Assembly (NCBI GenBank): GCA_004298505.1
Contig: SCRO01000116.1
Coordinates: 1-64,000 of the forward strand
Reading direction: 5' to 3'
Length of the DNA stretch: 64,000 nt
Source of the DNA: Rhodanobacter sp.
Lineage (GTDB): Bacteria > Pseudomonadota > Gammaproteobacteria > Xanthomonadales > Rhodanobacteraceae
In this document: piece after piece, positions 42,082-64,000 of the stretch
Layout: every line of letters starts with the position of its first letter
Numbering within the stretch: the first letter of the stretch is position 1
The notes under the pieces: generated by a model
Databases searched by the model: none
Told to the model about the DNA's origin: nothing
Seen by the model: only the letters and a program-made list of their open reading frames with translations
Program-made: the position numbers and the translations under genes

Positions 42082-44820
42082 ATGGAAAACCAGTTCTTCG
42101 AGCGGCCGATCCTCAATTCGCCGTACGACTACCCAGCCCATCACTGGGAACTCGACAAAAGCGGCCAGCCCACCCAGAAGGTGCTCGACAGCCGTCGCAC
42201 GGCTGACTTCGTCACGCCCATTCCCAAACCGCGCAAGCACCAGGGCAAAGCTGAACAGGCCAGCCTGCTCTTCAACGAAGGCAAGGGGCTCTCGTCCGAC
42301 GTCATGGCCATGTTGATCGCCTGGCAGACTGTCAACGCCGTGCGTCACCCCAACAGCAAACGCTTCACCCGCGGCTTTTTGATTGTCGCCCCCGGCATCA
42401 CCATTCGGGACCGCCTGCGCGTGCTGCAGCCGAACGATCCGTACAGCTATTACAAGAGCCGCGAGCTGGTGCCCGCTGACGTGATGGGCGACCTGGAGCG
42501 TGCCAAGATCGTCATCACCAACTACCACGCGTTCAAGCCACGCGAGCGGCTGGAGCTGTCCAAAGGTGGCCGGCGTTTGCTGCAGGGTAAAGATGGCGCA
42601 CCCCTCGAAACGCGGGAAACCGAAGGTCAGATGATCCAGCGCGTCATGCCCGACCTGATGGGCATGAAAAACATCCTGGCCATCAACGACGAGGCCCACC
42701 ACTGCTATCGGGAAAAGCCCGGCGCCACCGACCTTGACGAGCTGAAGGGCGACGACAAGGAAGAAGCGAAGAACAACAACGAAGCCGCCCGCCTGTGGAT
42801 CTCCGGTCTGGAAGCGGTCAATCGCCAGCTCGGCATCAACCGCGTCATCGACCTGTCCGCCACACCGTTCTTCCTCAGCGGCTCGGGTTATGCCGAAGGC
42901 ACCCTGTTCCCGTGGACCATGAGCGACTTCTCGCTGATGGATGCCATCGAATGCGGCATCGTCAAGTTGCCGCGCGTGCCGGTGGCCGACAACATCCCCG
43001 GTGGCGAAATGCCCAAGTTCCGCGAGCTGTGGAAGCACATCGGCAAGAAAATGCCGAAGAAGGGCCGCGGCAAGGGCAAGGCATTGGACCCGCTCAGCCT
43101 GCCGGTGGAACTGCAGACCGCGCTAGACGCCCTGTACGACCACTACGCGCGAACGTTCGAACTGTGGAATGAGGCCGGCATCCGCGTGCCGCCGTGCTTC
43201 ATCGTGGTATGCCAGAACACCGCGATCTCCAAGCTGGTGTACGACTACATTTCCGGCTTCGTGCGCGAGAACGACGACGGCAACGGCGAACTCATCAATG
43301 GCCGCCTGCCGCTGTTCCGCAATTTCGACGAACACGGCAACGCCATCCCGCGCCCGCACACCTTGCTGATCGACAGTGAGCAACTGGAATCAGGCGATGC
43401 GCTGGACAAGGATTTCCGCACCATGGCGTCCGACGAACTCGAACGTTTCAAGCGCGAGATCATCGCCCGCAACAACGACCCGCGTGCTGCGGATGCCATC
43501 ACCGACCAGGACCTGCTGCGCGAAGTCATGAACACCGTCGGCCGCGCCGGTCACCTGGGCGAGTCCATCCGCTGCGTTGTCTCGGTGTCCATGCTCACCG
43601 AAGGCTGGGACGCCAACACCGTCACCCACGTGCTCGGCGTACGTGCCTTCGGCACGCAGTTGTTGTGCGAACAGGTCATCGGCCGCGCGTTGCGCCGCCA
43701 GTCCTACGAACTCAACCAGGAGGGCCTGTTCGACGTCGAATACGCCGACGTGCTCGGCATTCCGTTTGACTTCACCGCCAAGCCGGTGGTGGCACCACCG
43801 CAGCCGCCGCGCGACACCGTACAGGTCAAGGCTGTGCGTCCCGAACGTGATGCCTTGGAGATCCGCTTTCCGCGCGTGCTTGGTTACCGCGTGGAACTGC
43901 CCGAGGAGCGCCTGAGTGCCAATTTCGACGACAACTCGGTGCTGACGCTGACCCCGGACCTGATCGGCCCCTCCATCACTCGCAATGCCGGCATCGTCGG
44001 CGAAGGCATCGACCTCAGTCCCAAGTATCTGGGCGACATGCGCCTGTCCACCGTGCTGTTCCACCTGACCCAGCGGCTGCTCTACACCAAATTGCGCGAT
44101 TCCGACCAGCATCCCCGCCTCAACCTGTTCGGTCAGGCCAAGCGCATCACCCGCCAGTGGTTGGACACCTGCCTGGTCTGCAAGGGTGGCACCTACCCGG
44201 CGCAACTGATGTACCAGGAGCTGGCCGACATGGCCTGCAACAAGATCACCGCCGCCATCACTCGCGCCCACATGGATCAGCGGCCCATGAAGGCCATGCT
44301 CGACCCGTACAACCCGGTCGGCTCCACCCGCCACGTCAACTTCCACACCTCACGTACCGAGCGCTGGGAAACCGATGCGCGCCGCTGCCACGTCAACTGG
44401 GCCATCCTCGACAGCGATTGGGAAGGCGAGTTCTGCCGTGTCGCCGAAGCCCATCCGCACGTGCGCGCATACGTCAAGAATCGTAACCTGGGTCTGGAAG
44501 TGCCGTACCGCTTCGGCTCCAAGAACCACATCTACATCCCCGACTATATCGTCCAGGTGGACGATGGACAGGGCGACGACGATCCGCTCAACCTCATCGT
44601 CGAGATCAAGGGCTACCGCCGCGAGGACGCCATCGAAAAGAAAGCCACCATGGACACCTACTGGGTGCCCGGTGTCAACCATCTCGGCAGCCACGGCCGT
44701 TGGGCCTTCGCCGAATTCACCGACGTCTACGCCATGCAGGAAGACTTCGCCAAGAAGATCGAGGCTGAGTTCGACAAGATGATCCGAGTAGTCACCGAAG
44801 ACACAGCCACGGAGGCTTGA
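42082..44820 (+). CDS. Type III-like restriction helicase/nuclease (Res) lacking its Walker A block
   Basis: Res-like protein of 912 residues, of the widespread family that travels with a Mod methylase and a UvrD-type helicase. DEAH-type motif II is INDEAHHCY, motif III LSATPFF, motif VI QVIGRALRRQ, and the C-terminal nuclease is IPDYIVQVDDG followed by LIVEIKGYR (PD-ExK type). However, the N-terminal part jumps from FNEGKGLSS straight to VMAMLIAWQTVNAVR. In relatives I recall, about 100 residues lie between, ending in an ATGAGKT-like Walker A immediately before VMAM. No P-loop is seen anywhere else. The deletion is in frame, so a protein can be made, but ATP binding and therefore restriction should be lost. 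Confidence 0.75.
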   Translation: MENQFFERPILNSPYDYPAHHWELDKSGQPTQKVLDSRRTADFVTPIPKPRKHQGKAEQASLLFNEGKGLSSDVMAMLIAWQTVNAVRHPNSKRFTRGFLIVAPGITIRDRLRVLQPNDPYSYYKSRELVPADVMGDLERAKIVITNYHAFKPRERLELSKGGRRLLQGKDGAPLETRETEGQMIQRVMPDLMGMKNILAINDEAHHCYREKPGATDLDELKGDDKEEAKNNNEAARLWISGLEAVNRQLGINRVIDLSATPFFLSGSGYAEGTLFPWTMSDFSLMDAIECGIVKLPRVPVADNIPGGEMPKFRELWKHIGKKMPKKGRGKGKALDPLSLPVELQTALDALYDHYARTFELWNEAGIRVPPCFIVVCQNTAISKLVYDYISGFVRENDDGNGELINGRLPLFRNFDEHGNAIPRPHTLLIDSEQLESGDALDKDFRTMASDELERFKREIIARNNDPRAADAITDQDLLREVMNTVGRAGHLGESIRCVVSVSMLTEGWDANTVTHVLGVRAFGTQLLCEQVIGRALRRQSYELNQEGLFDVEYADVLGIPFDFTAKPVVAPPQPPRDTVQVKAVRPERDALEIRFPRVLGYRVELPEERLSANFDDNSVLTLTPDLIGPSITRNAGIVGEGIDLSPKYLGDMRLSTVLFHLTQRLLYTKLRDSDQHPRLNLFGQAKRITRQWLDTCLVCKGGTYPAQLMYQELADMACNKITAAITRAHMDQRPMKAMLDPYNPVGSTRHVNFHTSRTERWETDARRCHVNWAILDSDWEGEFCRVAEAHPHVRAYVKNRNLGLEVPYRFGSKNHIYIPDYIVQVDDGQGDDDPLNLIVEIKGYRREDAIEKKATMDTYWVPGVNHLGSHGRWAFAEFTDVYAMQEDFAKKIEAEFDKMIRVVTEDTATEA

Positions 44821-45110: not shown

Positions 45111-45235
45111 AAGCCGCACATCCGCCCCTTGGCAGTACGCCCGCTCAACTATCCTGAGCGTGAGCCGACCCCTTGGGGCTTTCTTTTTTCCGACACTGGA
45201 AAAACGAGGGCGGCCCCTTCGCAAGAGAGGTCGCC

Positions 45236-46102
45236 GTGACCACGCGCCGCATCGCGATCCTCATCGACGGCGGCTTTTTCCTCAAGCGTCTGCCGCGTCT
45301 CGTCAAACCCGAGTTTTGCGCTACGCCAGATGGTATCGCCGGCTGCATACGTCATCTATGCTGCAACCATGTGAAGAATCTCACGGGTTGTAGCAGCAAC
45401 GACTGGAATACACACGTCTATCGCATCTTCTACTACGACGCGATTCCCTACGACGGCAAGGCACACCACCCGATCGACAACCGCTCGATCGACTTCGCCA
45501 AATCAGATGTCGTCACCCAGCGACTGGCGCTGTTCGACTGTCTGCGCAGACAGCGCAAGGTGGCGCTGCGGCTCGGCAAGGTCAATCGCGATCATGACTG
45601 GGCCATCAAGCCGGAGCTGACCAAGAAACTGTTGCACACGCGCACGGCGCTGGATGTCCTGTCCCGCTTGCCGGAACCGTCGCCAGCCGACGATGTCGCC
45701 GCGCCCGTCACGTTGACGCTTTCCAGCGACGAGCATCGCAACCTGCTCGCGCTGCGCGCTGCCTGGCAAAGCCTTGATGGCGGCTCGGTCGCGCTCGGCC
45801 TGCGCCAGAAAGGCGTGGACATGCGCATCGGCGTCGACATTGCAGCGCTCGCGCTCAAGAAACAGGTGGACACCCTGGTCCTCGTCGCCGGCGACAGTGA
45901 CTTTGTCCCTGCGGCCAAGCTCGCGCGCCGTGAGGGTATCGATTTCATTCTCGATCCGCTCTGGCAGCAGATCAACGCCGATCTGTTCGAACACATCGAC
46001 GGACTGCATTCTGGCCTGCACAAGCCCGGCCAGACGCACGTCGCCCCACAGCCGGCGCAGGGCGCTGCCGCAACGAACCAAGAGCATGCCGATGGCCCGT
46101 AA
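45236..46102 (+). CDS. NYN-domain (LabA/DUF88-like) putative RNase
   Basis: 288 residues. ILIDGGFFLKR gives the first acidic residue of the PIN-like NYN fold, and GVDMRIGVDIAALALKKQVDTLVLVAGDSDFVP gives the others; the order and spacing fit NYN nucleases. The C-terminal 25 residues are low complexity. The GTG start at 45236 follows AGAGAGG; the ORF-track start 45173 reads through the terminator-like T tract. It overlaps the Mod start by 11-17 bp, so it is coupled to the methylase. NYN proteins process RNA; in an R-M locus its role is unknown (a damage-response effector is one possibility). Confidence 0.75.
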   Translation: MTTRRIAILIDGGFFLKRLPRLVKPEFCATPDGIAGCIRHLCCNHVKNLTGCSSNDWNTHVYRIFYYDAIPYDGKAHHPIDNRSIDFAKSDVVTQRLALFDCLRRQRKVALRLGKVNRDHDWAIKPELTKKLLHTRTALDVLSRLPEPSPADDVAAPVTLTLSSDEHRNLLALRAAWQSLDGGSVALGLRQKGVDMRIGVDIAALALKKQVDTLVLVAGDSDFVPAAKLARREGIDFILDPLWQQINADLFEHIDGLHSGLHKPGQTHVAPQPAQGAAATNQEHADGP

Positions 46103-46826
46103 ACCCACCACCCCCAAGACCATCGCCACCCTCAAGCACAAAGAGGCCAGGCGCAAGAACATCCCCACCGCCGAATACCAGTCGGTGATGCAGAAGGAGG
46201 AGCAGGCGCCGGTCAAGGTCGCCTACGCGCGCACCGCCAAGGGGCTGGACGAGGAGAAGCAGGCGCGCAACCGCGACCTCGATCCGCAGTTGGTCTGGCG
46301 CGGCAAGGACCAGCAGGACTGGTCGGACCTGGTGGTCAACGCGCCGCCGCTGTACATCCAGGAAAAGGTCAACCCCAAGGTCTTGATCGACGACCTGCAG
46401 CGCGAAAGCCAGGCCGGCGCGCAGATGCAGTCCGGCGCCATGGCCGACCTGTTCGGCGACTTCAACGGCCTGCCCGAAGGCGCCGACAAGACCGACTTCT
46501 ACCAGTACGACGGTAACTGGCAGAACCGCATGATCCTCGGCGACTCGCTGCAGGTCATGGCCAGCCTGGCCGAGCGCGAGGGTCTGCGCGGCAAGGTGCA
46601 GTGCATCTATTTCGATCCGCCCTACGGCATAAAATTCAACTCCAACTTCCAGTGGTCCACCACCAGCCGCGACGTCAAGGACGGCAACGCGGAGCACATC
46701 ACCCGCGAGCCGGAGCAGGTCGAGGCGTTTCGCGACACATGGCGCGACGGCATTCATTCCTTACGTCGAAGTGGCACCGAGTCGGATCAAACTCCGGGCC
46801 TACCGTGGTCGGAGACTGCTCGATGA
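46086..46826 (+). pseudogene. Type III-like DNA methyltransferase (Mod), N-terminal fragment
   Basis: About 225 residues of true Mod sequence: an N-terminal KPTTPKTIATLKHKEARRKNIPTAE-type start, then MILGDSLQVMASLAERE and the catalytic motif IYFDPPYGIKFNSNFQ. After TWRDGIHS (about 46760) the family sequence stops abruptly and a short foreign tail leads to TGA at 46824-46826. The AdoMet-binding FxGxG-type region and target-recognition domain are missing. The matching C-terminal end reappears at 48113. The cut-off N-part keeps DPPY but cannot bind cofactor normally. Confidence 0.8.
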
Positions 46827-47743
46827 AATTCTGGGTTGGAGTTACTGATAACCGTTGGTACGAGTTCCTTGCGCAACGGCGCTTGGACGAAGTCAACTTC
46901 TGGCAGCCGAGCGCAACTCCACCTTTCAAGGGAGCTCCGGTAGGTATGCCTTTTCTGTTCAAGCTGAAGCGGCCGAACAACCATATCGCAGGAGGTGGTT
47001 TCTTCGTTACCTATAGCACGTTGCCAGTGCCTTTGGCGTGGGAGATTTTTGGTGAAAAAAACGGGGCAGCGGCGTTGGACGAATTCTTCGCACTACTGGG
47101 CCCGCTTGCGTCTGGCCGGGGGCTGAGTGGCGCCATCGGCTGCACGGTACTAACGAATCCATTTTTCCTTCCTGCTGAAAGGTGGGTAGAGCCACCAGGT
47201 TGGGCACCGAATATCGTGCGCGGAAAGATGTATGAAACCAGCTTGGATGATGGATCAGCGTTGTGGGCTGCTGTCGCGCGAAGCCTTAGCCAAGAGAGGG
47301 CCCAGGTGATGACGCCAGAAGGAATCAGCGAGGAGGAAGCGAAGTATGGACCCGCTGTGCTGGTATCGCCGAGGTTGGGCCAAGCATCCTTCAGAGTGCT
47401 GATTACAGATGCCTACAAACGCCGATGCGCTATTACTGGGGAAAGTACCCTCATCGCACTCGAGGCAGCTCACATAGTTCCATACGCGCATGAGGGTACG
47501 CACGACGTACGCAATGGCCTCCTTCTCCGAGCAGACTTTCATCGTTTGTACGATGCTGGCTTAGTCTCCGTAACGCCAGGGTTGCGCATCAAGATAAGTC
47601 CACGAATCCATGAGGCTTATTTCAATGGGAAGGCGTATTACCGAATGAATGATGCCTCCTTGACACAGATTCCTGACCGCCCGGAACAGCGACCTGACCC
47701 GGACCGCCTCAACTGGCATTACAAGAATTGCTTTCAAGCATGA
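46823..47743 (+). CDS. HNH endonuclease with a PUA/EVE-like N-terminal domain
   Basis: 306 residues. The C-terminal half holds the HNH_2 core: RCAITGESTLIALEAAHIVPYAHEG followed by NGLLLRADFHRLYDAGLV. The N-terminal MKFWVGVTDNRWYEFLA...PFLFKLKRPNNHIAGGGFF resembles PUA/EVE-type readers of modified bases (my fold guess). A modified-DNA-dependent, Type IV-like restriction role is therefore plausible. Its base composition is clearly lower in GC than the flanking Mod pieces. The ATG overlaps the TGA of the Mod fragment (ATGA), and the MazG-like gene starts 9 bp after its stop. Confidence 0.75.
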   Translation: MKFWVGVTDNRWYEFLAQRRLDEVNFWQPSATPPFKGAPVGMPFLFKLKRPNNHIAGGGFFVTYSTLPVPLAWEIFGEKNGAAALDEFFALLGPLASGRGLSGAIGCTVLTNPFFLPAERWVEPPGWAPNIVRGKMYETSLDDGSALWAAVARSLSQERAQVMTPEGISEEEAKYGPAVLVSPRLGQASFRVLITDAYKRRCAITGESTLIALEAAHIVPYAHEGTHDVRNGLLLRADFHRLYDAGLVSVTPGLRIKISPRIHEAYFNGKAYYRMNDASLTQIPDRPEQRPDPDRLNWHYKNCFQA

Positions 47744-47752
47744 GGGTTGGTC

Positions 47753-48103
47753 ATGTTGGTCATCACCGATGAAATCGTGCAGCAACTTCTCGAATTTCGG
47801 AGAGTACGAGAGTGGAAGCAATTCCATACCCCGCGAAATTTGGCAGCTTCGCTCGTGATTGAGGCCTCGGAGCTGCTTGAGTGCTTCCAGTGGGCTCGGG
47901 ACGCGGAACTACCTGATCTTGTTGCCCGTGAGCAAGAACACATTGAGGACGAGCTTGCTGACGTCGCGATTCTCTTGACCTATCTGTGTGTGGATATGGG
48001 GGTGGATATCGGCTCAGCCATGAAGCGCAAGATTCAGAAGAACAATGAGAAATATCCCGTAGAGCTTGCCCGCGGAAATGCCAAGAAATATGACCGGCTT
48101 TGA
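47753..48103 (+). CDS. MazG-like nucleotide pyrophosphohydrolase
   Basis: 116 residues, all-alpha MazG/dCTPase family. ASLVIEASELLECFQW and EDELADVAILLTYLCVDMG give the ExxE...ExxD metal-binding pattern. Such enzymes hydrolyse (d)NTPs, often aberrant or modified ones. It follows the HNH gene in the same lower-GC block; the last base of its stop precedes the point where Mod sequence resumes. Pairing with a putative modified-DNA nuclease suggests one module: one protein attacks modified DNA, the other the modified precursors (hypothesis). Confidence 0.75.
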   Translation: MLVITDEIVQQLLEFRRVREWKQFHTPRNLAASLVIEASELLECFQWARDAELPDLVAREQEHIEDELADVAILLTYLCVDMGVDIGSAMKRKIQKNNEKYPVELARGNAKKYDRL

Positions 48104-48112
48104 TCAAACTTT

Positions 48113-48653
48113 GGTGAAGTCGTCGTCAAGCGACTACATCTTCAACCACGATTCCATGTCCTCCGAGTTCGGCAAACTCGGCCGCATCCCCGTGCTGAAA
48201 GCCCGCATGAACGCCGGCCTGCACATGGCCGGCGACCTCAAGAACACCGGCAAGGGCAACCTCTTCGTCATCTTCGGCGAGCCCGACATCGCCATCCTCG
48301 ACGCCGGCGCAGACGGCGAACCCGGCCAGGTCCGCGTCAAGGTCAACGGCGTCGACGTCTTCCACCCCAACACCGGCGAAGTCCGCAGCGACGGCGCCGA
48401 GGGCATAGCCTGCTGGTTCATCGACACCGACTACAACGAAGAAAGCTTCTTCGTCCGCCACGCCTACTTCCTTGGCGCGAACGACCCTTACAAGTCTCTC
48501 AAGACCACCCTCAAGGCCGAAATCAACGAGGAAGCTTGGTCCACCTTGAACAGCGACACCTCCCGCCCGTTTGAGAAACCCAAGTCGGGGCGCATCGCCG
48601 TCAAGGTCATCAACCATCTCGGTGATGAAGTCATGAAGGTCTTCAAGCTATGA
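48113..48653 (+). pseudogene. Type III-like DNA methyltransferase (Mod), C-terminal fragment
   Basis: About 180 residues that continue the same Mod family: HDSMSSEFGKLGRIPVLKARMNAGLHMAGDLKNTGKGNLF in pieces, then IFGEPDIAIL and the terminal GRIAVKVINHLGDEVMKVFKL. GC content and codon use return to the island's GC-rich style. The track ORF begins at 48066 inside the MazG gene and has no proper start. Together with 46086-46826 it shows that one Mod gene was split and its middle (roughly 600 residues by family length) replaced. Confidence 0.75.
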
Positions 48654-48687
48654 TGGGGCTGTATTTGCCACTCACTGGGAGAACGTC

Positions 48688-49692
48688 ATGGCCAGTGCTG
48701 AGCAGCTGAAAGCGTTAGTCAGGTCACATCTGGAGGGCGATGATCAGCACTTCTTTTCGGTGGCCATGCAGCTTGCTGCCCATGAGGCGAAGCTTGGCCA
48801 TGGAAAGCTCGCGGAGGAACTCCGAACGCTCGTCGATCAGGCGAAGGCGCGGCGAAGCTCCGCGCACCACGGATTGGATCAGGCTATTCCGATCAGTCGC
48901 CCACGTGGCGATCTGGCAGGCCTGCTTTCCGTTTCGTATCCCAAGACGAGGCTTGGGGACATGGTCTTGGACGATATGCTCTCGGAACAACTGGCGCGCG
49001 TCGTGCGAGAGCAGCGCCAATCGGCTCAGATTCTTGCTCACGGACTGAGCCCAAGGCGCAAGTTGCTGTTGATGGGAGCGCCGGGAACTGGCAAGACAAT
49101 GACCGGAGCGGCGCTTGCGGGCGAACTAGGTCTCCCCTTGTTCCAAGTTCGGCTGGACGGGCTGATTACCAAGTTTATGGGGGAGACGGCGGCAAAACTC
49201 AGGCAAGTGTTTGAGGCGACAGATCGAACGCGTGGGGTTTATTTTTTTGATGAGTTCGATGCGATTGGATCGCAGCGGGGGCTCGCGAATGACGTCGGCG
49301 AAATCAGGCGCGTCCTGAATAGTTTTTTGCAGATGATTGAGCAAGACCAATCTCACAGTTTGATCATGGCTGCAACGAACCATCCTGAAATACTGGATCA
49401 TGCGTTGTTCCGACGGTTTGATGACGTACTGCTTTATGAGCTGCCGGATTTTGCGCACATTGCTGAAGTTCTGAAGTCGCGTCTCGCGCGCATGGCGGTC
49501 AAGGGTGTTTCGTGGAAACGTCTTGCCAACGAGTTTATCGGGCTCAGCTATGCAGAGTTAATGCGCGCCTCTGATGAGACCTTGAAAGAAGCGTTGATTG
49601 AGCAGCGAGATCAATTTACCGAGGGTGACATTCGTCGGATGCTGGAGGAACGTCAGCGGATTTCCAGGCGTTTGACGAACAAGATTCGATAA
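48688..49692 (+). CDS. ietA: IetA-like AAA+ ATPase
   Basis: AAA+ ATPase of 334 residues. Walker A GAPGTGKTMTGAALAGE, Walker B VYFFDEFDAIGSQRG, sensor-1 MAATNHPEILDHALFRRFDD and a C-terminal lid. With the subtilisin-like protease next to it, it matches the two-gene IetAS defence/toxin-antitoxin arrangement known from Agrobacterium plasmids and from bacterial defence-system screens. GGGAGAA precedes the ATG. Lower GC than Mod and the helicase on either side. Confidence 0.8.
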   Translation: MASAEQLKALVRSHLEGDDQHFFSVAMQLAAHEAKLGHGKLAEELRTLVDQAKARRSSAHHGLDQAIPISRPRGDLAGLLSVSYPKTRLGDMVLDDMLSEQLARVVREQRQSAQILAHGLSPRRKLLLMGAPGTGKTMTGAALAGELGLPLFQVRLDGLITKFMGETAAKLRQVFEATDRTRGVYFFDEFDAIGSQRGLANDVGEIRRVLNSFLQMIEQDQSHSLIMAATNHPEILDHALFRRFDDVLLYELPDFAHIAEVLKSRLARMAVKGVSWKRLANEFIGLSYAELMRASDETLKEALIEQRDQFTEGDIRRMLEERQRISRRLTNKIR

Positions 49693-49714
49693 TTACGCGA
49701 GCTAAGGATGGCCA

Positions 49715-52222
49715 ATGGCGCAGCAGGACGGTCAGAAAAGAAAGCATTTCATCTTGTCAGGCACAGCGGAAGCTGAGCAGTTTCGATCGGCGGGCGGAGG
49801 TGGCGACGGCCCTGCGATACCCGCACGAGATCGAAACCAGCATGGTGCCGCCTTATTACGCCAGGTTCGTGGCTTGGCGGCTGATATCGAAAGTGCACGG
49901 ATAGCACAGGAAGCTGCCGGACTCGAAGAGGGCTTCGGCCTGCAAATCGCGTTTGAAAGTTTCCCGGACGTGGAATTTGCGTTTGAGTCTTTGGGCCGAG
50001 CATCTTCTGGCATCGAGTTGCTTAACGTCCGCTACGAAGGCGAACGACCGCTTGCAACGGTGTTTATCCCTGACGGGAAGCTTGGTGTGTTCGAGGGCTT
50101 GATCGGCGCTTACCTCGACGAGTCGCGGGATGGGAAAAAAGGGCCAAGAAACCGTGCGCTGCTTGACACGATTGCGGAGATTCGAGCGGCGACGCTCGAA
50201 GAGCTCTGGACCGACGACCCGTCGACTTTGCCTCGATCTGATAATGAGGCGTTCTGGTGGGAAGTGTGGTTGCCCGTGCGCGATGACCGCACGGCGGTTG
50301 CTAGCGGGTTCAAGCGGTTGGCGCGAGGTTTGGACTTTCTTGTCGCGGATGGAGAGCTACAGTTTCCGGAGCGCACCGTTTTGCTGGTCTACGGTTCGGC
50401 CGGGCAAATGAAACGGTCCGTGCTGATCCTCAACAGCATTGCCGAATTGCGGCGGGCCAAGGACACCGCGGAGTTTTTTGACTCGCTTCGACCTGACGAG
50501 CAGTCGGCATGGCTGGACAACCTGCTGAACCGGATGACTGTCCCAGAGCCGGGCGCGGAGGTGCCGCATGTCTGCCTCTTCGACACGGGTGTCAATCATG
50601 GCCACCCGCTTGTGGAGCTGGCGCTTGATAGCCGTGATTTGCACGCTGTTGAGCCTGCGTGGGGCGTTGATGACGGCGATGGCCACGGTACGGCTATGGC
50701 TGGGCTGGCTCTGGTCGGGAACCTGACGGAAGCACTCGCGTCACAGGAGCCGATCCAAATCGATCACCGCCTTGAGTCCGTCAAGTTGATACCGCGAGAT
50801 GGTGCCAATGGGGGTGACGCCAAACACCACGGCTATCTGACGATAGAGGCCGTGGCTCGGCCTGAGGTCACAGCACCTAGGCGGCATCGCGTGTTCAGCA
50901 TGGCAGTCACTGCACGAGACAACCGCGATCGTGGTCGTCCATCGTCTTGGTCTGCCGCGATCGATCGATTGGCGGCCGACGCGGATGGTCAGGGGCAAAC
51001 TCCGCGGCTGTTTGTGATATCGGCGGGAAATGTGAATGATCGTGCGGCTTGGGCGACTTATCCAGACAGCAACGGCACTGATGGTATTCACGATCCTGGG
51101 CAGAGTTGGAATGCGTTGACGGTTGGCGCCGCCACAGATCTTGTGCAGATCACTGAGGCCAACACCGATGGGTATCAGCCCATAGCTCCGGCTGGCGGGC
51201 TCAGCCCGTTCAGTACGACATCACTCACTTGGCAATCGCATTGGCCACTAAAGCCCGACGTTGTGTTTGAAGGCGGCAACGCAGCCAAGGACCCGCTTGG
51301 GGAAATGCTGACCATGACCAGCCTCAGCCTCATTACGGCCAACTCGGCGATTCAGGACCGACTGTTCACGACTGCAACTGCTACCAGTGCCGCGTCCGCA
51401 CTCGCAGCGAGGATGGCTGCCCAGTTGATGGCGGAATACCCGGAGCTCTGGCCGGAAACCATCCGTGCCTTGATCGTACATTCGGCGGAATGGACGAAGG
51501 CAATGCGCGAAGCGTTCTTGCCGAAGAACGGGCACCCAACGAAAGGAGAGATCGTTAGGCTCATTCGTCATTGCGGCTTTGGAACGCCAAACCTGGACCG
51601 AGCCATGTGGAGTGTCGAAAACTCGTTGACAATGGTTTGCGAGGAACAGTTGCATCCGTTCAAGCGCGAGCAGGGCAAGGAGCCCTCGGCGCGCGATATG
51701 AATCTGCACCGGCTCCCCTGGCCTTTGGAGGAGCTTGAGGCGCTAGGGCAGACGGAAGTGGAGATGCGAGTTACGCTTTCGTATTTTATCGAGCCAAATC
51801 CGTCGGCTCGTGGCATCAAGTCTCGCTACCGATATGAGTCGCATGGGCTGAGGTTTGACGTAAAGCGTCCGCTCGAGTCTGAGGCGGATTTTCGTGCGCG
51901 TATTAACGTTGCTGCACGTGATGGGGAAGAACAGACGCGAAGCGGTGGCATCGACCAAGACTGGGTCATTGGTACACAAGGCAGACACAAAGGGTCGCTA
52001 CATTCGGACATCTGGCGCGGAAGTGCCGCTGACCTCGCGAGTCGAAGCGTGCTGGCGGTGTATCCGGCACTTGGTTGGTGGAAGACGCGCCCTCGCCTCG
52101 AACGGTACAACACCGCGGCGCGATACGCCCTTGTGGTTTCAATTCGCGCTCCCGAAGTCGATGTTGACCTTTATTCGGCGGTTGCCGCCAAGGTGGCTGC
52201 GGTCGTGACGATACAAACGTGA
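49715..52222 (+). CDS. ietS: IetS-like subtilisin-family (S8) protease
   Basis: 835 residues. The S8 triad is readable: Asp in HVCLFDTGVNHGHPL, His in DGDGHGTAMAGLAL, and Ser in TATATSAASALAARMAAQ. The first 270 residues and last 250 are family-specific. No signal peptide, so it acts in the cytoplasm, as expected for a protease effector controlled by the partner ATPase. AAGGA precedes the ATG. The TGA overlaps the ATG of the helicase gene (TGATG), giving translational coupling across what looks like a cassette border. Confidence 0.8.
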   Translation: MAQQDGQKRKHFILSGTAEAEQFRSAGGGGDGPAIPARDRNQHGAALLRQVRGLAADIESARIAQEAAGLEEGFGLQIAFESFPDVEFAFESLGRASSGIELLNVRYEGERPLATVFIPDGKLGVFEGLIGAYLDESRDGKKGPRNRALLDTIAEIRAATLEELWTDDPSTLPRSDNEAFWWEVWLPVRDDRTAVASGFKRLARGLDFLVADGELQFPERTVLLVYGSAGQMKRSVLILNSIAELRRAKDTAEFFDSLRPDEQSAWLDNLLNRMTVPEPGAEVPHVCLFDTGVNHGHPLVELALDSRDLHAVEPAWGVDDGDGHGTAMAGLALVGNLTEALASQEPIQIDHRLESVKLIPRDGANGGDAKHHGYLTIEAVARPEVTAPRRHRVFSMAVTARDNRDRGRPSSWSAAIDRLAADADGQGQTPRLFVISAGNVNDRAAWATYPDSNGTDGIHDPGQSWNALTVGAATDLVQITEANTDGYQPIAPAGGLSPFSTTSLTWQSHWPLKPDVVFEGGNAAKDPLGEMLTMTSLSLITANSAIQDRLFTTATATSAASALAARMAAQLMAEYPELWPETIRALIVHSAEWTKAMREAFLPKNGHPTKGEIVRLIRHCGFGTPNLDRAMWSVENSLTMVCEEQLHPFKREQGKEPSARDMNLHRLPWPLEELEALGQTEVEMRVTLSYFIEPNPSARGIKSRYRYESHGLRFDVKRPLESEADFRARINVAARDGEEQTRSGGIDQDWVIGTQGRHKGSLHSDIWRGSAADLASRSVLAVYPALGWWKTRPRLERYNTAARYALVVSIRAPEVDVDLYSAVAAKVAAVVTIQT

Positions 52223-54300
52223 TGGACTTCCGCATCGCCGACACCTTCACTGACAGCCTCGCCCGCCTCACCGGCGACGAGCAGAAGGCCGTGAAGACGA
52301 CAGCCTTCGACCTGCAGATGAACCCGGTCAACCCGGGCATGAGCTTGCACAAGCTCGACCGCGCGCGGGATCCGAATTTCTGGTCGGTGCGGGTCGGCAG
52401 CGATGTCCGGCTGATCGTGCACAAGACCGCGGCGAGCCTGCTGCTTTGTTATGTGGATCACCACGACAAGGCCTACCAGTGGGCCGAGCGTCGCAAGCTG
52501 GAGACGCACCCGAAGACCGGTGCCGCGCAGTTGGTGGAGATTCGCGAGCGGGTCGAGGAAATCGCCGTCCCGAAGTACGTCGAGGTCGAACAGCCGGCTC
52601 CCGCTAAGCCAATGCTTTTTGCGGGCGTGGCCGACGGCGACCTGCTTGCCTACGGCGTACCGGAGGAATGGCTGCCGGATGTGCGTGCGGCCAATGAGGA
52701 CACCCTGCTCGAACTGACCGATCATCTGCCGGCCGAGGCGGCGGAGGCGTTGCTGGAACTGGCGACGGGTGGGCAACCCATGTCGGCGGTCGTGGCGGTG
52801 GCGGAAGCCAGCCCGTTCGAACACCCGGACGCGCAGCGCCGCTTCCGCACCATGAACGATGTGGACGAGCTGGAGCGCGCGCTGGCGTTCCCGTGGGACA
52901 AGTGGACGATCTTCCTGCACCCGGCGCAGCGCGAATGGGTGGAGAAGGATTACAGCGGTCCGGCGCGCGTGTCCGGTTCGGCCGGCACCGGCAAGACCAT
53001 TGTGGCGCTGCATCGCGCGGTGCATCTGGCGCGCGCGAACCCTGAGGGTCGCATCCTGCTGGCCACGTTCTCCGACACGCTGGCCCATGCGCTGCGCATC
53101 AAGCTGCGCCGGCTGATCAGCAATACGCCGATGCTGGGCGAGCGCATCGAAGTCCAAGCGATGAATGCCATCGGCGAACGGCTGTACGAACTGCAATTCG
53201 GCCGGCCCCGGCTTGCCAGCGCGGACGAGATCCGCAGCCTGCTGGACGCGGCATCGGCGGCGCATCCTGAACATCGTTTCAGCGCCGCGTTCCTGCTGTC
53301 GGAATGGCAGGACGTGGTCGACGGCTGGCAATTGGGCAGCTGGGAAAGCTACCGCGACGTCCAGCGGCTAGGCCGCAAGACGCGGCTGCCGGAGGCACGC
53401 CGTGCGCTGCTCTGGTCGATCTGCCAGGACGTGCGCGCCGAGCTGCAGCAGCGCGGATGGACAACGCGCGCCGGCATGTTCGGGCGGCTGGCGAACGAAC
53501 TGCCCGGCTGCCGCCATCCGCCGTTCGATTTCACGGTGATCGACGAGGCGCAGGACATCAACGTGGCGCAGCTGAAGGTCTTGGCCGCGTTGGGTGCCGA
53601 TCGGCCGAACGCCTTGTTCTTCGCTGGCGACCTGGGCCAGCGCATCTTCCAGCAGCCGTTCTCGTGGAAGTCGCTGGGCGTGGACATCCGCGGTCGCTCG
53701 CGCACGCTGCACATCAACTACCGCACCTCGCACCAGATCCGCATGCAGGCCGACCGCCTGCTGGCACCGGAGGTGTCCGACGTGGACGGCAACGTCGAGC
53801 AGCGCCGCGGTACGGTCTCGATATTCAACGGCCCCGTACCGACGATCAGCTCGTTCCCCTCGGCGGATGTTGAGTCCGCCGCCGTCGGCGATTGGCTGCA
53901 CCAGCGCGTCAACGAAGGCATCGCGCCACAGGAACTGGGCGTGTTCGTGCGCTCGTGCGCCGAACTGGATCGCGCCCGCAAGGCATTGGCGAGCGCGGGT
54001 CTGCCGTTCAAGGTGCTGGATGACCACACCCAGACCGCGCCCGGCCACGTATCCCTCTGCACGAGGCACCTGGCCAAGGGCCTGGAATTCCGCGCCGTGG
54101 CCGTGATGGCCTGCGACGACGAAGTGGTGCCGCTGCAGCAACGTATCGAGTCGGTCACGGACGATGCCGACCTGGAAGAGGTCTACAACACCGAACGGCA
54201 CCTGCTGTACGTCGCCTGCACTCGCGCCCGCGACCAGCTCATGGTGTCAGGCGTGGCTCCCGTGTCGGAATTTCTGGATGACCTCACCAGCGCAAGGTAA
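52222..54300 (+). CDS. RelE-like/UvrD-like fusion helicase
   Basis: 692 residues. The first 90 or so (FRIADTFTDSLARLTGDEQKAV, HKLDRARDPNFWSVRVGSDVRLIVH) have the fold signature of a RelE/ParE mRNA-interferase-type domain. After a linker comes a superfamily-1A helicase: Walker A GSAGTGKTIVALHRA, Walker B FTVIDEAQDI, INYRTSHQIR, HLAKGLEFRAVAVMACDDE and LLYVACTRARDQLMV. The fusion occurs with Res/Mod loci elsewhere (from memory). Start may be GTG 52219 or ATG 52222. GC content is high like Mod, so it belongs to the older island layer. Confidence 0.82.
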   Translation: MDFRIADTFTDSLARLTGDEQKAVKTTAFDLQMNPVNPGMSLHKLDRARDPNFWSVRVGSDVRLIVHKTAASLLLCYVDHHDKAYQWAERRKLETHPKTGAAQLVEIRERVEEIAVPKYVEVEQPAPAKPMLFAGVADGDLLAYGVPEEWLPDVRAANEDTLLELTDHLPAEAAEALLELATGGQPMSAVVAVAEASPFEHPDAQRRFRTMNDVDELERALAFPWDKWTIFLHPAQREWVEKDYSGPARVSGSAGTGKTIVALHRAVHLARANPEGRILLATFSDTLAHALRIKLRRLISNTPMLGERIEVQAMNAIGERLYELQFGRPRLASADEIRSLLDAASAAHPEHRFSAAFLLSEWQDVVDGWQLGSWESYRDVQRLGRKTRLPEARRALLWSICQDVRAELQQRGWTTRAGMFGRLANELPGCRHPPFDFTVIDEAQDINVAQLKVLAALGADRPNALFFAGDLGQRIFQQPFSWKSLGVDIRGRSRTLHINYRTSHQIRMQADRLLAPEVSDVDGNVEQRRGTVSIFNGPVPTISSFPSADVESAAVGDWLHQRVNEGIAPQELGVFVRSCAELDRARKALASAGLPFKVLDDHTQTAPGHVSLCTRHLAKGLEFRAVAVMACDDEVVPLQQRIESVTDDADLEEVYNTERHLLYVACTRARDQLMVSGVAPVSEFLDDLTSAR

Positions 54301-54595: not shown

Positions 54596-55363
54596 TCAAC
54601 CGGTACGCGATTCCACGACGGGGAGCACCCTGCGCCACGGAACGCCATCGGGCAGGGCGTAGAAGCCGCGCGGCTCCTCGACCGTCCAGCGCAACTTGCG
54701 CGCAATCAGCGGACCGATACCGTCCACCTCGGCCAGTGCATCCGCATCGGCGACGATCGCCGCTTCGATACTGCCGAAGCGCTGGATCAGGCGCGCCGCC
54801 CGTTGCGGGCCGACACCCGGTAGCCCCTGCAAGACATGCGATTGCAGCGCAGCCTTGCCCTTGGGGCGGCGACCTCGGCGTGGCAACGCGCCGCTGGTCA
54901 TGGCACGCCGCTGTTGCGCGGCATAGCGCAGCGTGCGCACCGTATCCTCGGCGTCGTGCGTGCGCAGCACCGGCAGGCCGATGAACAGCGATACCGTGAC
55001 CAAGGCACCCCGGATCGCCTCGACGCGCATGCCGCTGGAGGCCAGATCGCGAGCGCTGCCTTCGAGAATCAGCGCCGCGGGAAGCTTCGCTTTCGCCAGT
55101 CGCAAGGCTTGCGCGAAAAGTCGCCCATCCTTGATCGATGCCGCCAAGTCGAGCAGCGTCTTGCGCTCGAACAACAGCGCATTGTCGACGCAGTAGTCGC
55201 CCACCGGCAGGCGCCGGATTTCGATGGCGAACGTGTCGCAGGCGGCAAGTGCGACCCGCATCGCCCCCCTGCATTCGCGGTCGTCGACGAGCAGCCGCAG
55301 CTGGCTGCCACGCTTCGCGTCTGCTTGCATCGAATGATCATCCACTGCGTCTTTCAAGCGCAC
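54596..55363 (-). CDS. XPF/ERCC4-type nuclease with helix-hairpin-helix domain
   Basis: 255 residues. The ERCC4 nuclease core is clear: LRLLVDDRE, then VGDYCVDNALLFERKTLLDL, matching GDx(n)ERKx3D of XPF/Mus81 enzymes. The C-terminal part is a tandem helix-hairpin-helix (LQGLPGVGPQRAARLIQRFG and EVDGIGPLIARKL). Such proteins cut branched or flapped DNA. It stands alone 111 bp from the trailer end of the CRISPR array, transcribed away from it. Start may be MRLK (55363) or MQAD (55330). Bacterial members are uncommon and mostly uncharacterised. Confidence 0.8.
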   Translation of the reverse strand: MRLKDAVDDHSMQADAKRGSQLRLLVDDRECRGAMRVALAACDTFAIEIRRLPVGDYCVDNALLFERKTLLDLAASIKDGRLFAQALRLAKAKLPAALILEGSARDLASSGMRVEAIRGALVTVSLFIGLPVLRTHDAEDTVRTLRYAAQQRRAMTSGALPRRGRRPKGKAALQSHVLQGLPGVGPQRAARLIQRFGSIEAAIVADADALAEVDGIGPLIARKLRWTVEEPRGFYALPDGVPWRRVLPVVESRTG

Positions 55364-61400: not shown

Positions 61401-64000
61401 TGGACTGGATATCGATGCTTTTCTGAGCTGCCTACGCGGCAGCGGACCGTGGTCTTGATGTCCTGCAGGTCTTTCAGCATTTCTGAGCTGCCTACGCGGC
61501 AGCGGACATGACGGGCAACAGGTCGCCAAGGATCGACTGTTTCTGAGCTGCCTACGCGGCAGCGGACGCTGTTAACTGGTTGGACCGCGATAGTTGCCAT
61601 TTCTGAGCTGCCTACGCGGCAGCGGACCCGAGGTCTGTGGAGCTTGAGCCGCCACCCTTTTTCTGAGCTGCCTACGCGGCAGCGGACATCAATGGCTCAT
61701 CGGACATCATGGTTCCTTTTTTCTGAGCTGCCTACGCGGCAGCGGACCGGATATCTCCGAACACGACGCGCGGTCTGCAGTTTCTGAGCTGCCTACGCGG
61801 CAGCGGACAAAGACCAGGCTGAAGCCATCCGCCAGACTGATTTCTGAGCTGCCTACGCGGCAGCGGACCATTGTGTTTGTCTCCAGTCAGGCGGCGAGAA
61901 TTTCTGAGCTGCCTACGCGGCAGCGGACTGCCGCGTGACCACGTCGGCGGGCGTTGGTGTTTTCTGAGCTGCCTACGCGGCAGCGGACCACCACGTTGGC
62001 GAACATCCATTCGCCGGCCATTTCTGAGCTGCCTACGCGGCAGCGGACTGTATGCCACCTCGAGCGGACCATAGCCATACTTTCTGAGCTGCCTACGCGG
62101 CAGCGGACTCCGGTGACAAGGTACACATTGCCGCGCAACATTTCTGAGCTGCCTACGCGGCAGCGGACATGACTGGTCAAGCCACGGCTCCGATGCGTTC
62201 TTTCTGAGCTGCCTACGCGGCAGCGGACGGTTCTTCAGTCGCGTTGCATTGGCGCCGAGTTTTCTGAGCTGCCTACGCGGCAGCGGACGCGGAAAGTACG
62301 GCATCCGTGGAACGATTGAATTTCTGAGCTGCCTACGCGGCAGCGGACTGTAGTTCGAAGCTGACATCAGTTGCCTCCGCTTTCTGAGCTGCCTACGCGG
62401 CAGCGGACAACCAGCGGCTGCAGATGGCAAGCAGCTCGATTTTCTGAGCTGCCTACGCGGCAGCGGACTCGCGGGCGGTCGGCGCCGCAACAGTTTCGAA
62501 GTTTCTGAGCTGCCTACGCGGCAGCGGACCAAGACGCTTTCGACGACGCGCATTCTGAGGATTTCTGAGCTGCCTACGCGGCAGCGGACTTGTCGCAGAT
62601 GAGCCGCGCGCGCTGTACGTCTTTCTGAGCTGCCTACGCGGCAGCGGACTGGCACTCCTGCCGCGCGTCGTCCAGCATACGTTTCTGAGCTGCCTACGCG
62701 GCAGCGGACGCTCCACGACCTATCGAGGGCCAGACTCAGGCTTTCTGAGCTGCCTACGCGGCAGCGGACGAACGTGGTATCGCCACCCGTCGTGCCCGGC
62801 TTTTCTGAGCTGCCTACGCGGCAGCGGACTTGCCTGCGCAAACATCGGCCGATCCTTTATTTTTCTGAGCTGCCTACGCGGCAGCGGACCCAACAATAAG
62901 ATCGCCCTGCGCCGATGTGATTTTCTGAGCTGCCTACGCGGCAGCGGACGTCGCCATATTGCGTGAACTGCCATGGCGACGTTTCTGAGCTGCCTACGCG
63001 GCAGCGGACGATCAAGTCGCTGGAAGACTTCAAGCGGGCTTTTTCTGAGCTGCCTACGCGGCAGCGGACCCGACGCTGGCAGCGGAATCTACCGCCGAGT
63101 TTTTCTGAGCTGCCTACGCGGCAGCGGACGGTGAACAGCCGTTTCTTCATCTCGGCGTCAATTTCTGAGCTGCCTACGCGGCAGCGGACAGGTACACATT
63201 GCCGCGCAACAAGAGAAAGAGTTTCTGAGCTGCCTACGCGGCAGCGGACTCGGCCAGCATGCGCGCCATCATCTCGACCTTTTTCTGAGCTGCCTACGCG
63301 GCAGCGGACGTGCTTTGGCGTTTGCGGCGTGAGCCTTGTTGTTTCTGAGCTGCCTACGCGGCAGCGGACCTTGCCATAGCTGACGCTTGAGGTTACCGCA
63401 TTTTCTGAGCTGCCTACGCGGCAGCGGACAAACGTTTCGTCCGCGCCTCGCCTGACTCCATTTTCTGAGCTGCCTACGCGGCAGCGGACTGGTCGTGTGG
63501 CTTTCTGTACGCGCAAGTTTATTTCTGAGCTGCCTACGCGGCAGCGGACTTCAGCCTGTCGGCAGTCGCCTGACAATCTGATTTCTGAGCTGCCTACGCG
63601 GCAGCGGACAACTTTGCCGGCTTCGGCGCTGTGCTGGCGACTTTCTGAGCTGCCTACGCGGCAGCGGACTTGCCGCGCCCGTCGATGGACGCACGGCCAG
63701 CGTTTCTGAGCTGCCTACGCGGCAGCGGACACGCCAAGCGCTGCATCCTGGCCGACTTCAATTTTCTGAGCTGCCTACGCGGCAGCGGACTTCTGGTGGA
63801 ACAGGTTTCCGACGCCGTTGGCTTTCTGAGCTGCCTACGCGGCAGCGGACCGACGGCACCCCTTACCGCCTTGGTTGCTCTTTTTCTGAGCTGCCTACGC
63901 GGCAGCGGACGATGACACGCCCTCCACGAGCCACGAGAGAAATTTCTGAGCTGCCTACGCGGCAGCGGACATTTCCGATGACCTGATCCGCATGGTGCGA
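55475..64000 (-). CRISPR. Type I-F CRISPR array, at least 142 repeats, open at the right edge
   Basis: Repeats of 28 nt recur every 60 bp. On the plus strand each starts TTTCTGA and contains CTGCCTACGCGGCAG. The reverse complement (starts GTCCGCTGCC, ends GGCAGCTCAGAAA) matches the Type I-F repeat plan, so transcription is leftward. I counted 142 repeats (first 55475-55502, last 63943-63970), 141 full spacers and one cut spacer. Spacers are 32 nt, but eight are 33 nt (units ending before 56256, 57397, 57638, 58359, 59860, 61781, 62502 and 63703). Variant repeats sit at the left end (55475, 55595) plus one end-base change at 60460, so the left is the old, leader-distal end. No cas gene is in the window; leader and cas should lie to the right. 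Confidence 0.97.

Follow-up and report, generated by a model that had tools for sequence, protein, structure and literature searches.

The closest described relatives of the nuclease considered here are the EVE-HNH enzymes VcaM4I, TspA15I and CmeDI, proteins of about 300 aa that join an N-terminal PUA-superfamily domain to a C-terminal HNH domain. VcaM4I flips 5mC or 5hmC into a pocket, both VcaM4I and TspA15I act on DNA carrying these bases, and in E. coli TspA15I, a relative of VcaM4I, gives protection against T4gt, weaker protection against T4 and none against lambda (PMC7897488). Other work bears on the company that such enzymes keep: some restriction-modification complexes carry inserted homologues of mcrBC (Fukuda et al. 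2008, PMC2614495), and SauUSI homologues adjoin MutT homologues (Bell et al. 2020, PMC7641849). Enzymes of the dCTP pyrophosphatase 1 (dCTPP1) type, for their part, are pool sanitisers with 5-methyl-dCTP hydrolase activity (PMC10742078).

We describe a locus, in a 64,000-nucleotide stretch of DNA from Rhodanobacter sp. (hereafter the window), that resembles each of these and differs from each. Its nuclease has VcaM4I as its best PDB match by sequence and by fold, but its N-terminus is not detectable as an EVE domain by sequence, and it has a MazG partner. That partner matches dCTPP1 (RS21-C6) across nearly its whole length with the catalytic region aligned, yet it sits beside a nuclease in a defence island and is not a lone housekeeping gene. 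As with SauUSI and MutT, a predicted type IV restriction enzyme lies next to a nucleotide pyrophosphohydrolase, although both families are unrelated to theirs. As with the McrBC insertions, a putative modification-dependent nuclease is nested in a restriction-modification locus; there, however, the enclosing complex is type I or IIG and the insertion is read as gain of a helper, whereas in the window the Mod core has been replaced and the system destroyed, and among relatives of this nuclease such destruction has happened on several occasions. The host of the insertion is a type III-like system of the BPTD_3080 family, both of whose subunits are predicted to be inactive in the window. Among the open-access papers searched we found none that combines MazG with type IV restriction and defence systems, an absence that is not proof, and the EVE census does not mention MazG. 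The most interesting addition to what is known is the recurrent replacement of methyltransferase cores.

The nuclease and its MazG-like partner

The nuclease gene lies at 46823..47743 on the forward strand (ATG at 46823, stop at 47741-47743) and encodes 306 aa. Nine base pairs after its stop, and in the same direction, the ATG at 47753 opens a gene for a MazG-like NTP pyrophosphohydrolase of the dCTPP1/RS21-C6 type (47753..48103). The first-pass annotation had described just such a pair, an HNH nuclease with a possible modified-base-binding domain and, 9 bp away, a nucleotide pyrophosphohydrolase; both genes are present as described, the identity of the second is borne out by its Pfam family, and the binding domain holds as a fold match.

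The C-terminal HNH_2 domain (aa 176-305) is matched by PF13391 above the Pfam cut-off (E 1.1e-13, aa 202-250), and its H217, N231 and H240 are intact and, across 54 homologues, invariant or nearly so. The N-terminal half matches no Pfam, PADLOC or NCBIfam model, the PUA, EVE and ASCH models of Pfam included. An AlphaFold model built on the 54 homologues (mean pLDDT 86.7) nevertheless gives this half, at about aa 1-140, a PUA/ASCH/EVE-like fold. Foldseek ranks VcaM4I first among PDB structures (6yex, E 2.1e-9), followed by Z. mobilis ASCH domains (~1e-5) and TagI (5e-5), all with a probability of 1.00, and then, more weakly, by N-terminal domains of McrB. Whole-chain TM-scores are low (~0.3) because the domains are placed differently. 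By sequence, VcaM4I is the sole PDB relative, through its HNH domain. The locus thus has what would be expected of a type IV PUA-HNH enzyme: a PUA-superfamily sensor domain, seen by fold and not by a sequence model; a C-terminal HNH domain with its H, N and H; and no cognate methyltransferase at the locus, the enclosing Mod being without its core. As modelled, the architecture is that of the PUA-superfamily modification-dependent restriction enzymes. We also considered a phosphorothioate-dependent (SBD-HNH) restriction enzyme and rejected it: NF045808 scores 60.8 bits against a cut-off of 180 and covers the HNH part only.

The partner matches PF12643 with 66.3 bits against a curated cut-off of 27 (E 3e-18), and its nearest named solved structures are human and mouse dCTPP1 (E 2e-20, PDB). 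An ExxE...ExxD metal-binding arrangement is recognizable, in that the EASE/ELLE and EDEL/ELAD region aligns with dCTPP1. The protein has no match in PADLOC 2.0.0. By analogy with the dCTPP1-type enzymes, its substrate would be dCTP and/or 5-modified dCTP.

On balance, we lean towards reading the pair as a compact, horizontally moving cassette for type IV restriction, to which a dNTP pyrophosphohydrolase belongs as an accessory and which often lands in restriction-modification genes. With its PUA/EVE-like domain the HNH protein would most likely bind a modified base of incoming DNA (probably a 5-substituted cytosine), and the HNH domain would then cut near the bound base. MazG would most likely hydrolyse dCTP, 5-modified dCTP or both to monophosphates; as an accessory that is not obligate, it would reduce the pool on which a modified-DNA phage depends. 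In the window, the cassette would have replaced the catalytic core of mod, leaving the host restriction-modification system dead and itself in that system's place. The surroundings, a defence island that includes IetA/IetS, UvrD and a CRISPR locus resembling type I-F, favour this reading, as do the two protein families, the fold matches, the recurrence and co-divergence of the pair, the broken Mod and Res, and the precedents named above. Against it stand the N-terminal half that no sequence model recognizes and the low whole-chain TM-scores; in addition, two thirds of the nuclease family have no adjacent MazG, with no compensation elsewhere, and MazG also occurs beside Schlafen-group-3 helicases without HNH, so that its role need not involve the nuclease. 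An attack at both the DNA and the nucleotide pool would, moreover, be partly self-defeating, since progeny DNA made from a pool stripped of modified dCTP would lack the mark that the nuclease reads. If the two proteins do cooperate, a simple two-gene module would join the restriction of modified DNA to control over the pool of modified dCTP.

Recurrence of the pair

Four homologues from the window's genus were aligned and used as a query against 84,980 species genomes, which yielded 241 relatives of the nuclease. The best 80 of these 241, together with other loci, gave 94 distinct full-length homologues, of which 25 have a MazG gene of the same subfamily within 320 nt and 69 have no adjacent MazG. 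By record title, the paired loci come from gamma-, beta- and deltaproteobacteria, Acidobacteriota (Bryobacterales), Rubrobacteraceae, Flavobacteriales and Nitrospinales, and many of the genomes are metagenome-assembled. MazG mostly lies downstream of HNH; it is upstream in L049 and divergent in L079, while in L050 a Schlafen-group-3 helicase gene separates the two. Within the sample of the window's genus, all five genomes with a full-length HNH gene (that of the window, G006, G020, G031 and G033) have MazG adjacent to it, and only two other members (G021, G025) carry such a MazG.

Same-subfamily MazG genes are found in 89 of 274 genomes of the class (~32%), about one in each, and we estimate the chance of HNH-MazG adjacency to be of the order of 1e-4 per locus. 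Set against this background, pairing at 25 of 94 loci is co-occurrence far beyond chance. The MazG label changes 12 times on the nuclease tree, and the distances between HNH proteins correlate with those between their MazG partners (Mantel r 0.57 for 23 pairs, a value reached by 0 of 5000 permutations). A search for recurring pairs was one check named in the first-pass annotation, with mere chance co-occurrence as one outcome that would count against it; recurrence and co-divergence both emerge instead. The pairing is real and maintained, yet not obligate. Among 50 genomes with HNH only, 35 carry no such MazG anywhere and 15 (30%) carry one, compared with the 32% background, so supply of MazG in trans in these genomes is not supported. 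The earlier idea of a two-gene defence module is supported in part, as regards nuclease architecture, MazG type, recurrence and co-divergence. A strict need for both genes is made less likely by the facts that most of the wider HNH family is without an adjacent MazG and most HNH-only genomes are without any.

These distributions bear on what MazG might do for its neighbour. It could protect the host from the nuclease by clearing 5-modified dCTP, so that the host's own DNA gains no marks for HNH to cut. The sanitising activity of dCTPP1-type enzymes (PMC10742078), the short spacing of the pair and its co-divergence would all fit, and the contradiction of removing the very mark that the nuclease reads would be escaped. 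An obligate antidote is nonetheless unlikely across the family, given the 35 HNH-only genomes without such a MazG and a carriage rate no different from background, and we regard self-protection as doubtful overall, although it could still hold in the paired subclades. We give similarly little credence to the view that two unrelated defence genes simply travel together in islands, with MazG depleting or cleaning nucleotide pools and no cooperation between them. In its favour, most HNH genes do without MazG, and MazG of this type is also found where HNH is absent, next to Schlafen-group-3 helicases and in the vicinity of hsdM-like genes. Tight spacing in many contexts, co-divergence, and the repeated association implied by the 12 label changes speak against it.

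The Schlafen-group-3 helicases (PF09848) adjoin HNH in L022, both HNH and MazG in L047, L049, L050 and L079, and MazG alone in L287 and L289, which suggests that HNH, MazG and these helicases form a small set of interchangeable modules. Helicase genes were located at L022:7914-9905, L047:8304-10211, L050:2455-4380 and L289:1858-3324; that of L022 matches the candidate PDC-S41 with 943 bits. A bolder version of the cassette reading, which we put forward tentatively and hold to be less probable than the cassette reading itself, is that HNH(PUA) and MazG make up an anti-phage system of two genes that is distinct and so far undescribed. It would tie the recognition of modified DNA to control over the pool of modified dCTP, have the Schlafen-group-3 helicases as a third interchangeable module, and spread as a bare cassette by replacing type III methyltransferase cores time and again, so that immunity based on modification gives way, at the same site, to modification-dependent immunity.

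Regarding carriage, no homologue covering 80% of the query was found in 50,697 phage records, and four plasmids carry homologues of the nuclease at 44-46% identity. One IMG/VR viral contig (65%) has an HNH-MazG pair (L188 5001-6283) nearly identical to that of L028; by inspection its flanks hold a transposase-like frame, and it may be cellular DNA. In three loci of the window's genus (L002, L004 and L005, from G031, G033 and G020) the pair lies downstream of one and the same chromosomal gene, which by inspection is fabV, and the sequences after the pair differ, making this site a possible hot spot.

Replacement of type III methyltransferase cores

The first-pass annotation had overlooked that the pair is nested inside a broken type III mod gene. 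PDLC03632, the PADLOC model for type III methyltransferases (983 positions), matches the window twice, at 46092-46826 with its positions 10-242 (E 5.5e-113) and at 48066-48653 with positions 799-983 (E 1.6e-87). Compared with the intact mod gene of G465, the window is homologous up to 46761 and again from about 48131 onwards. The gene thus survives as a 5' remnant (46092..46761, +), which encodes Mod aa 1-223 with DPPY kept, and a 3' remnant (48131..48653, +), which encodes about its last 170 aa; the two parts are 82% (against G465) and 91% identical in amino acids to intact Mod. Between them lies the cassette (46762..48130, +), whose limits were set by comparison with four intact mod genes and which consists of a 61-bp leader, HNH, MazG and a tail of about 27 bp, and nothing else. 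These ~1369 bp stand in for ~1.64 kb of mod, and about 550 core residues, including the SAM-motif region, are gone. GC3 is 0.56-0.59 in the cassette genes and 0.92 in the Mod 5' part. The frame of the 5' remnant runs into the cassette and ends in a TGA that overlaps the HNH start (ATGA), an arrangement compatible with translational coupling. Scans of 45900-48700 returned no sigma-70 promoters or terminators.

Upstream, the BPTD_3080-family Res gene (42082..44820, +; NF046055, 1188 bits) has a 378-bp in-frame gap relative to G465 that removes the GAGKTT Walker A motif, and the window protein contains no GKT or GKS. With neither a complete Mod bearing its SAM motif nor a Res bearing Walker A, the features looked for in an active system of this type, both subunits are predicted from their sequences to be dead, and with them the host type III system. 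Res genes are also internally deleted or truncated in L034, L044 and L180. Between Res and Mod the window has an NYN-domain gene (45173..46102, +; PF01936, E 3.8e-9), and this slot is variable, holding Fic or Bro-N/DinD-like genes (by inspection) or ORF6N (by Pfam) elsewhere.

The nesting is not peculiar to the window. Collinear, co-oriented remnants of the same Mod family adjoin homologous nucleases in 12 further loci (L021, L023, L024, L027, L029, L034, L040, L042, L044, L046, L060 and L132/L137), two of which, L042 and L060, have the 3' part only, from a more distant Mod. Where N-terminal parts are retained, they end between about residues 37 and 223, usually with the HNH ATG within ~25-110 bp of the break. 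In R. lindaniclasticus (L003/L055) the Mod before the pair belongs to another type III family (PDLC03645) and breaks off at residue 174; a truncated type III Res comes after the pair. In L074 the nuclease follows a 5' remnant of Res. Under a strict definition, the Mod label changes 9 times on the nuclease tree. On the Mod tree, the L132 remnant falls in a separate, well supported clade; the remaining ones are dispersed between intact genes, in positions that are less well supported. Some loci may share a single insertion event: L023 and L024, which are sisters and break at the same point, and possibly the window and L021, which are sisters but break at different points, and of which the L021 remnant has stop codons.

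Random landing in mod at such a rate is not credible, as we estimate well under one expected case per 94 loci. The nuclease is not, however, exclusive to broken mods. A sample of 399 genomes from the order holds 24 Mod genes, 20 with long open frames and four with short ones. Among these four, those of the window and G507 hold HNH-MazG, one is at a contig end, and that of G718 is broken without HNH. A family search added G546, which is the same contig as L021, as a third case of HNH-MazG in Mod. Internal breaks without HNH occur in G240, G718 and probably G191, the others being contig ends. It follows that mod genes are disrupted in several ways, the HNH family being one frequent occupant. We saw no common flank among the loci that would mark a mobile element whose ends are shared. 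Further links of HNH homologues to restriction-modification loci come from Mesorhizobium amorphae plasmid pM0123d (L326), where a type ISP restriction-modification gene has one directly downstream of it, and from L085:7503-8480, where one lies upstream of a type II methyltransferase gene.

The replaced cores invite two other explanations. One is that the nuclease cuts the mark made by the enclosing Mod, so that only insertions that kill mod survive. The recurrence of core replacement would suit this, and McrBC, which kills cells acquiring a methyltransferase (PMC2614495), offers a precedent. Yet long open Mod frames of the close type coexist with HNH in 6 of 50 HNH genomes, with 3 more of divergent type, against a background of 24 of 369 for any match in the class sample, counts for which errors in metagenome binning are a caveat. 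Coexistence is thus not below background, mutual exclusion of HNH and Mod is not supported, and we consider this explanation very improbable. It is simpler to suppose that, within mobile defence islands, restriction-modification loci serve as landing sites, for which the inserted mcrBC homologues (PMC2614495) are a precedent. Least probable of all is that the HNH protein is no restriction enzyme and inserts itself into mod genes as a nuclease of the homing type: its repeated presence there, always co-oriented and usually with a left edge ~25-110 bp before the ATG, would be in keeping with homing, but the insertion points vary widely (Mod aa 37 to 223) and come with large deletions, no conserved ends were seen, other sites are unrelated (beside fabV or housekeeping genes, for instance), and the protein shares its domain architecture with modification-dependent restriction enzymes.

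Read as a restriction cassette, the nested position represents a recurrent route, taken on several separate occasions, by which one kind of restriction replaces another: a modifying system is destroyed, and a nuclease predicted to read modification is installed in the same gene. There is also a practical consequence, in that annotation pipelines may count the broken Mod and Res as a working type III system.

The rest of the neighbourhood continues the defence island. Region 48688-54300 holds an IetA-/IetS-like pair (AAA ATPase and subtilase), whose NCBIfam scores fall below the equivalog cut-offs, and then a UvrD-like helicase gene. A UvrD gene is also found downstream of mod in G465 and G423, and IetAS therefore looks like a later insert. 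On the reverse strand, 54596-55363 encodes a stand-alone ERCC4-nuclease and helix-hairpin-helix protein next to a CRISPR array. This type I-F-like array extends from 55475 to the window's end at 64000 and on to ~64184 in the contig, with 146 copies (142 of them inside the window) of a 28-bp repeat at a period of ~60 bp. Downstream of it, the contig has a Csy1-like frame at 66933-68321 (by inspection) and a large Cas2-3-like frame at 69122-72667.
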